A stretch of 64,000 nucleotides of DNA from Acidocella sp. (GTDB lineage: Bacteria; Pseudomonadota; Alphaproteobacteria; Acetobacterales; Acetobacteraceae), in NCBI GenBank assembly GCA_029077825.1, contig JAQNCT010000002.1, positions 1-64,000 of the forward strand, read 5' to 3'. Of this stretch, positions 61,719 to 63,375 are shown one piece after another (positions within the stretch are counted from its first letter, which is position 1; every line of letters begins with the position of its first letter). A program made the translations under genes and the position numbers. The notes under the pieces are model-generated. The model had not been told where the DNA came from and did no database searches. It saw nothing but the letters and a program-made list of their open reading frames with translations.

Positions 61719-62477
61719 TCAGGCCTTCAGCGTATCGATCAGATCAATCATGAATTCGGTATCCTCCTGGGTCAGTGCCTCCCAGCCCTGAAACCCCAGT
61801 GATTCCAGCACTGAGGCGCCATTGCGCACGCTGGCCATGTTCTGCAACTGCGCGCGCAGCTTCGGCACCAGATCGCTCAGCCGTGGCCCGGCGATCAGCA
61901 CATGCTGGATGTCAGAAATCTGGCTGGTCACCAGCGGGCGCAATTCCCGGCGAATGGCGTTGGAGAATTCATTCCAGGTGTCTTTCGGGAAAAAACCGAT
62001 ATCCGCCCCATTGGTCATCAGCGCCTTGGCGATCAGAATATAATTATCCACCACCACCGGAACGATGTTGGCTTTTCCCAGATCAGCCGATTCCAGCATG
62101 ATCATGCCGATCAGATTAATATGCTCGTCATTGGTATAAGCCACCCGGGTCTGCGGCTTGAGATCTTCCACGCTCTGCGCCGGGCTGCCCACCGCCACTG
62201 CGATGATACACTCATCCGTAACACCTTGCGCCCGCGCCACCGGTGTAAAGTTTTTTTCACGCACCAGCATCGTGGCATCCAGCGGGTTGGCGTAGATCAG
62301 ATCCACCTTGTCAGCCCGGATCGCCGCCCGCTGCGTCTCAAAATCATTATACATTTCGCAGTGAAAATGCATCTCAAGGCTGCGCTGCAACCAGGTATTG
62401 AACACATACCAACCCACCAGCCGCGCCGGCGTAAAATCCGGGCTGACTGTCATCTGATAAACCGTCTCATCGCTCAT
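61719..62477 (-). CDS. Soluble PhnD-like substrate-binding protein
   Basis: 252 residues resembling the phosphite/phosphonate-type periplasmic binding protein fold (PhnD-like, PF12974 type). It starts MSDETVYQMTVSPDFTPARL with no signal peptide, so it should stay in the cytoplasm. The core pattern RAAIRADKVDLIYANPLDA and VAYTNDEHINLIGMIMLE is visible. There is no ABC transporter gene next to it. It overlaps the stop of the PAS gene upstream by 4 bases, so it seems to form a two-gene sensory unit rather than an uptake system. Confidence 0.75.
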   Translation of the reverse strand: MSDETVYQMTVSPDFTPARLVGWYVFNTWLQRSLEMHFHCEMYNDFETQRAAIRADKVDLIYANPLDATMLVREKNFTPVARAQGVTDECIIAVAVGSPAQSVEDLKPQTRVAYTNDEHINLIGMIMLESADLGKANIVPVVVDNYILIAKALMTNGADIGFFPKDTWNEFSNAIRRELRPLVTSQISDIQHVLIAGPRLSDLVPKLRAQLQNMASVRNGASVLESLGFQGWEALTQEDTEFMIDLIDTLKA

Positions 62478-62986
62478 TGGGTTGGCCCTTCCCAGCGTGA
62501 ACCTTCACCGGCCTTTAGGGTTTGATAGAGGGCGATCGAGGATTTGATCTTTTCACGTGATGGCTTGCGCCGCACTGAGGTAAAACCTACCACCTGACCT
62601 TGCCGGATATTGGGTATCACCGTCGCATAGACCCAGTAAAACCGGCCATCCTTGCGCAGATTCTTCACATAGCCATGCCAAATTTTGCAAGCCGCCACAT
62701 CATCCCACAGCCCCTTGAAGGCCAGCGTCGGCATGTCCGGGTGCCGCAGGATAGAATGCGCCGCCCCGGTTAGTTCTGCTTTGCTGTAGCCGGACATTTC
62801 CACGAATGACTGGTTACAATGGGTGATGATCCCCTTGGTGTCGGTGCGAGAGACGATCAACCGGCCATCGGGAAATGGCACCTCCTCGTCAGTGACCAGC
62901 AGATGCCGCGCCCCTTCCTCATACAACATTAAATCATAGCTGCGGTACGGTCCGGTTACATCCTGAGGCAACATCGGCTTGAGCAT
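62474..62986 (-). CDS. Aer-type PAS domain protein
   Basis: 170 residues, almost all one PAS domain (about 40-145). The segment RHPDMP (81-86), W94 and GFTSVRRKPS match the flavin-binding PAS of the aerotaxis receptor Aer, where these residues hold FAD. There is no membrane segment, HAMP or methyl-accepting domain. The C-terminal 25 residues form a short helix. It overlaps the PhnD-like gene start by 4 bases. It may sense redox state and pass it to the PhnD-like protein (inference). Confidence 0.85.
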   Translation of the reverse strand: MLKPMLPQDVTGPYRSYDLMLYEEGARHLLVTDEEVPFPDGRLIVSRTDTKGIITHCNQSFVEMSGYSKAELTGAAHSILRHPDMPTLAFKGLWDDVAACKIWHGYVKNLRKDGRFYWVYATVIPNIRQGQVVGFTSVRRKPSREKIKSSIALYQTLKAGEGSRWEGPTQ

Positions 62987-63093
62987 GCGGCAATCCCTTC
63001 GCGCTTAAATCACAGATCGTCGCAACAAAACCCGTGCGCCAGCCAGAGGTGGTGCTACACCCAGCATGTCGAAATTCTGATCGAGACTCTTCC

Positions 63094-63144
63094 TTGACCT
63101 AAATTAAGGACCATTCGCGGCATTCGCGCATTGAGTTAGATCAA
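63094..63144. promoter_or_regulatory. Two FNR/FixK-like boxes
   Basis: TTGAC-CTAA-ATTAA at 63094-63107 and TTGAG-TTAG-ATCAA at 63131-63144 resemble the TTGAT-N4-ATCAA anaerobox; centres are 37 bases apart. The second differs from the consensus at one base, the first at two. They lie 108-158 bases before the PAS gene start and more than 230 before the reductase start, so the PAS/PhnD unit is the nearer target. Confidence 0.4.
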
Positions 63145-63297
63145 ATACACCTTGAAGCCTTCGCCGCCATTTGGAGTCGAGCCAGCGCGCGGCGTTATTG
63201 CGTCATGTCGCACAAGAACGTAATATGAACATTCATGTTGCGCTGCGGTGACAGCCTGTTAAAAATCGAGGCGGGAATCGTAGTTAGAAAAAAATTT

Positions 63298-63346
63298 AAA
63301 CCATGATGTGGTATTCAATTGATAAAATCTCCCCAACATGTAGTGT
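63298..63346. promoter_or_regulatory. NrdR-box-like sites at the ribonucleotide reductase promoter
   Basis: The 16 bases at 63331-63346 (CCCCAACATGTAGTGT) match all six strongest positions of the NrdR box (C4, A6, A8, T9, T11, G13). A weaker partner, AAACCATGATGTGGTA, lies at 63298-63313, 33 bases upstream. A TAAAAT at 63323-63328 lies between them, so bound repressor would cover the promoter. Confidence 0.5.
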
Positions 63347-63375
63347 AGAGCTCCAATGAACAATCGAGGTCGGCG

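Follow-up and report, generated by a model that had tools for sequence, protein, structure and literature searches.

The window analysed here is a stretch of 64,000 nucleotides from the genome of an Acidocella sp. (contig JAQNCT010000002.1), and the genes of interest lie on its minus strand, arranged as follows.

62474..62986, minus strand: gene for a PAS protein of 170 aa, with an Aer-type, predicted FAD-binding PAS domain at about residues 35-142 and no membrane, HAMP or signalling domain
61719..62477, minus strand: gene for a PhnD-fold protein of 252 aa without signal peptide, a predicted cytoplasmic ligand-binding protein
62474..62477, minus strand: ATGA overlap of 4 bp between the PAS stop and the PhnD start
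62987..63375, strand not assigned: intergenic stretch that separates the pair from a divergent ribonucleotide reductase gene, the presumed site of the pair's promoter

The original prediction for this DNA had described two genes overlapping by four bases, and both open reading frames are present at these coordinates; the minus strand is added here. The ATGA overlap makes translational coupling of the PAS and PhnD genes likely. No sigma-70 consensus was found on the minus strand of 62987..63375, and the scores of a promoter and terminator scan were close to those of shuffled sequences. Upstream the pair is flanked by the divergent ribonucleotide reductase gene and downstream by an MFS transporter gene, so that, as originally noted, no ABC transporter gene adjoins it at this locus.

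The PAS protein matched Pfam family PF08447 (E 1e-12), and among its solved relatives Aer was the best (E 2.5e-33 and 1.6e-31). The RHPDMP motif occupies residues 81-86, and W94 aligned with Aer W70. The FAD contacts in Aer are H53, R57, W70, N85 and R115 (PMC9668731), which in the alignment correspond to H77, R81, W94, N109 and R139 of the PAS protein, and all five of these residues were invariant among 45 PAS orthologs. From this likeness to the Aer PAS domain, both in sequence and in the five FAD contacts, we infer that the PAS protein binds FAD. The Aer receptor, however, has a membrane segment, a HAMP domain and an MCP signalling domain, whereas the window protein is a soluble, stand-alone protein with one PAS domain in its 170 aa, just as had been proposed.

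The PhnD-like protein matched PF12974 over residues 9-239 (E 4.4e-36), and its predicted structure was of high confidence (pLDDT 93.6). The closest folds found with Foldseek were PtxB (E 1.2e-17) and PhnD (1.7e-16), with ArrX and AioX also among the closest. Since the first strand of this confident model begins at residue 6, there is no space for a signal peptide, and since 80 of 82 PhnD-type relatives likewise have 21 residues or fewer ahead of the conserved GW motif, the family as a whole is leaderless. The absence of a signal peptide, already part of the original prediction, thus extends to the relatives. An ordinary periplasmic phosphonate/phosphite binding protein of an ABC transporter would show the same PF12974 match and the same PtxB/PhnD fold, but neither the window protein nor its relatives have an export signal, no ABC genes adjoin the pair, and in the sequence alignment the Ser/Thr anion-binding loop of PtxB is replaced. 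Without export the protein could not serve an ABC transporter in the periplasm, and we rejected this explanation as extremely improbable. The protein therefore shares its fold with the PhnD/PtxB binding proteins while lacking both their export signal and their anion loop. Since that loop is not kept, a phosphonate ligand is not expected, and judged from the alignment the ligand is probably another small molecule. The invariant polar residues of the family include N64, D88, E89, T115, D117 and H192.

A precedent for a PhnD fold serving as a sensor is found in AioX and ArrX, which are arsenic-sensing PhnD-type proteins (PMC5908839). They are periplasmic and signal with a histidine kinase, whereas the present family is leaderless and, as described below, linked to Roadblock and GTPase genes. 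It would represent a case in which the fold of periplasmic binding proteins has been taken over for sensing in the cytoplasm. A search of plasmids for relatives gave one distant match, on Sphaerotilus plasmid NZ_CP035710 (L018 4627-8708), where a natural STAS-PhnD fusion overlaps a SpoIIE-type phosphatase that also contains PAS and PilJ-type regions. This looks like a partner-switching system, and it shows a PhnD domain employed in cytoplasmic signalling.

Genome contigs were scanned with an alignment of the PhnD-type proteins alone. The scan gave 361 relatives, and the loci of the 80 best were examined. Many of these loci are from metagenome assemblies, and the counts are of loci and not of independent events. 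A simple ORF picker overlooks genes where loci are rich in GC, and conserved neighbours were therefore identified by tblastn and by clustering all ORFs. A PAS gene of the same subfamily was found directly upstream of the PhnD gene and on the same strand in 80/80 of these best loci, and in 78 of the 81 pairs measured no more than 30 bp separated the two genes. The hosts of the best 80 of the 361 were mostly Gamma- and Betaproteobacteria (Thiothrix, Methylomonas, Neptunomonas, Marinobacterium, Halothiobacillus, Sphaerotilus and Leptothrix). They also included a second Acidocella, as well as four bins that carry the label Anaerolineae, Anaerolineales or Ardenticatenaceae. Since a search with PhnD only recovered the PAS gene upstream in every one of the best 80, the pair is real and chance adjacency was rejected; the concern that the pairing might be restricted to close relatives failed on the same count. 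In one Anaerolineae bin (L040 3859-6821), genes resembling those for STAS proteins, a SpoIIE-type phosphatase, an anti-sigma-type ATPase and receiver proteins are located some kb upstream of the pair.

Just upstream of the PAS gene, 67 of the best 80 loci (of 361) carry a gene for a Roadblock/LC7 (MglB-type) protein of 120 aa, here called RobS. Further upstream follow a second protein, RobL, whose match to Roadblock is weak and which is present in most of the best 80 loci, and then an MglA-type GTPase and a conserved protein. The GTPase gene was located in the same cluster in 51 of these 80 loci, and none was found there in the other 29. The Aer-type PAS protein had been described as an orphan, which as a general property is not supported by these two counts. 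The conserved protein, seen in about 65 of the best 80 loci and without a Pfam match, lies at the response-regulator-like position of Group 3 systems, in which a conserved protein has a receiver-like N-terminus and a winged-helix C-terminus (PMC4316618). The GTPases of the relatives read YGTPGQ at G3 (T for D), lack the lysine at G4 (TQMD) and have DAR at G5, which are the marks given for MglA and Group 3 by Wuichet and Sogaard-Andersen (PMC4316618). The operons of the relatives therefore agree with the Group 3 MglA/MglB systems of Beta- and Gammaproteobacteria in their GTPase motifs and in having one or two Roadblock proteins. At the Oceanospirillaceae loci the response-regulator-like protein, RobL and RobS are kept and no GTPase was found in the cluster, which makes the Roadblock the steadiest partner of the pair. 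Since the two genes are co-inherited over a wide range of bacteria and usually share a cluster with MglA/MglB, the pair probably provides the sensors of this switch.

The present case differs from the accounts of Group 3 in that PAS and PhnD are not mentioned there and in that the GTPase is missing from the window Acidocella. The word PAS does not occur in the text of PMC4316618, and its section on gene neighbourhoods describes no binding protein. More generally, the published accounts that we found do not state which signals feed Group 3 MglA/MglB in Beta- and Gammaproteobacteria, and they name neither sensor. No described PAS-PhnD-Roadblock system was found in the literature, in which subscription journals were thinly covered, and this is weak evidence of novelty. 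Among actinobacteria, the conservons (CvnA-D) combine a sensor protein with a Roadblock protein and an MglA-type GTPase. They are alike in this general scheme, but in the conservons the sensor is a membrane protein resembling a histidine kinase, and the GTPase belongs to Group 2.

It was also considered that the pair is a self-contained sensor acting on some other target, such as chemoreceptors, a kinase or a cyclase, and that its linkage to mgl genes reflects shared regulation only. Consistent with this, 13 of the best 80 loci (of 361) have no adjoining Roadblock gene, although two of these are cut by contig ends, and the lone pairs are spread over several separate groups of the PhnD tree. 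The bin of L100 yielded neither a GTPase nor a Roadblock, and in the window genome three chemoreceptor genes and no MglA were detected. On the other hand, when the remaining 11 genomes with a lone pair were searched, a GTPase was found elsewhere in nine and a Roadblock in ten, with partners on the same contig as the pair in six of those genomes. The persistence of the partners in these genomes suggests that the pair is able to leave the operon. Moreover, the Roadblock gene stands just upstream in most of the loci, and among the best 80 of the 361 no chemoreceptor, kinase or cyclase recurred beside the pair. We therefore regard a self-contained sensor as unlikely, though with a real chance of being correct. 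The original prediction of a cytoplasmic redox- and ligand-sensing module that acts on another output stood in its first part, since the FAD contacts are conserved, an export signal is lacking and the pairing is wide, but not in its choice of a chemoreceptor, kinase or cyclase as the output, the conserved partner being Roadblock/LC7-MglA.

Within Acidocella the pair was present in only two of 38 genomes. In the PhnD tree the window pair was nested in the Halothiobacillus clade with support of 100/94, and from this placement we read a horizontal transfer, the pair having probably been acquired from a Halothiobacillus-like donor. No MglA was detected in the window genome with a profile that was positive in six control or relative genomes. 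With this profile an MglA did come up in two further Acidocella genomes, where it belongs to another kind of operon, ordered Roadblock-GTPase-Roadblock. Such an operon, with GLPGQ at G3, was observed in other Acidocella at L123 8309-9771 and L124 6835-9455 and is absent from the window genome. The window genome does contain three Roadblock proteins of the RobS subfamily, on contigs 80 and 86 and not coupled to the pair. One Acidocella Roadblock shares 54-62% identity with the RobS proteins of the operons, as against only 23-27% with MglBs from another Acidocella.

The rarity of the pair in the genus and the lack of a detected MglA would also be expected if the Acidocella pair were the decaying, functionless remnant of an mgl operon gained by horizontal transfer. 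One PhnD copy (L032, around 9015) lacks 1 bp close to its start relative to the window, but this is from a metagenome assembly and is perhaps an assembly error. When the two Acidocella genomes were compared, synonymous codon changes greatly exceeded nonsynonymous ones in both genes (45 versus 7 in PAS and 53 versus 9 in PhnD), and both therefore seem to be under purifying selection. Since, in addition, the reading frames and FAD contacts of the window pair are intact and Roadblocks of the matching subfamily are present in the same genome, decay appears very unlikely.

We therefore return to the sensory role, and propose as fairly probable that the pair supplies the sensory input of a Group 3 MglA/MglB Ras-like switch, and that in Acidocella the pair was horizontally acquired and acts in trans. 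The PAS protein would bind FAD and report the cytoplasmic redox (respiratory) state, while the PhnD-fold protein would sense a small molecule in the cytoplasm as a clam-shell sensor. Together they may act on the Roadblock/LC7 (MglB-type) protein, presumably by direct contact, whose altered effect on the Group 3 MglA-type GTPase would change the output of the latter. By analogy with related systems, this output may be transcription or motility that depends on type IV pili. In Snodgrassella such motility is altered when an orphan mglB of group 3 is mutated (PMC11112851), and no other experimental hint on the output was found in the literature. No GspE/PilB-type ATPase scored over the cut-off in the window genome. 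Since no MglA gene was found there, the pair is envisaged to act in trans on one of the three RobS-subfamily Roadblocks of contigs 80 and 86.

As a variant of this sensory switch, the PhnD-fold protein might bind no ligand and instead be a scaffold between the PAS sensor and the Roadblock. The loss of the anion-binding loop and the tight pairing with PAS would suit such a role, but the two-lobed binding-protein fold is retained in the confident model and many polar residues are invariant, and we consider a scaffold quite unlikely. With a sensory PhnD-fold protein, the pair offers two soluble and testable input candidates for Group 3 switches, namely redox state and a cytoplasmic ligand. Its conservation extends to methanotrophs, to filamentous sulfur and iron bacteria and to marine Oceanospirillaceae, and some of these organisms are genetically tractable. 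More tentatively, it is possible, though less likely than not, that a FAD-PAS protein and a cytoplasmic PhnD protein controlling a Roadblock constitute a widespread, undescribed class of sensory input to bacterial Ras-like switches, which moves between genomes as a two-gene unit and works without MglA in Acidocella.

The coupling of Roadblock proteins to exchangeable cytoplasmic sensor domains is a common theme. Protoglobin genes were found inside the mgl operons of three relatives (L051, L068 and L089), and the mgl operons of Halothiobacillus include a small protein of V4R-like appearance without a Pfam match. On contig 80 of the window genome (L030 1192-3071), a gene for a Roadblock-protoglobin fusion is accompanied by a converging Roadblock gene and then by a separate protoglobin gene. 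The fusion resembles, with the domain order reversed, the globin-Roadblock fusion HGbRL of Methylacidiphilum (PMC4476040). HGbRL thus parallels these contig 80 genes in joining a sensor domain to a Roadblock, but unlike the pair it is a single fused protein without a PAS or PhnD part. On contig 86 (L022 7628-9400) a Roadblock gene, an SCP2 gene and a second leaderless PhnD-type gene lie in a row without a PAS gene, and the same row occurs in two other Acidocella genomes (L127 and L129).

A protein of 449-458 aa without a Pfam match is encoded directly downstream of PhnD in Halothiobacillus (L033 9740-11113) and, in Acidocella, divergently from the contig 86 Roadblock gene (L022 6022-7368, minus strand), and in both it is close to a PhnD gene. 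The two versions are 67% identical, a second sign of exchange between Halothiobacillus and Acidocella. The AlphaFold model of the 458-aa Halothiobacillus protein was unusable (pLDDT 31), and the C-terminal CVAMGD motif of the protein recalls V4R domains.
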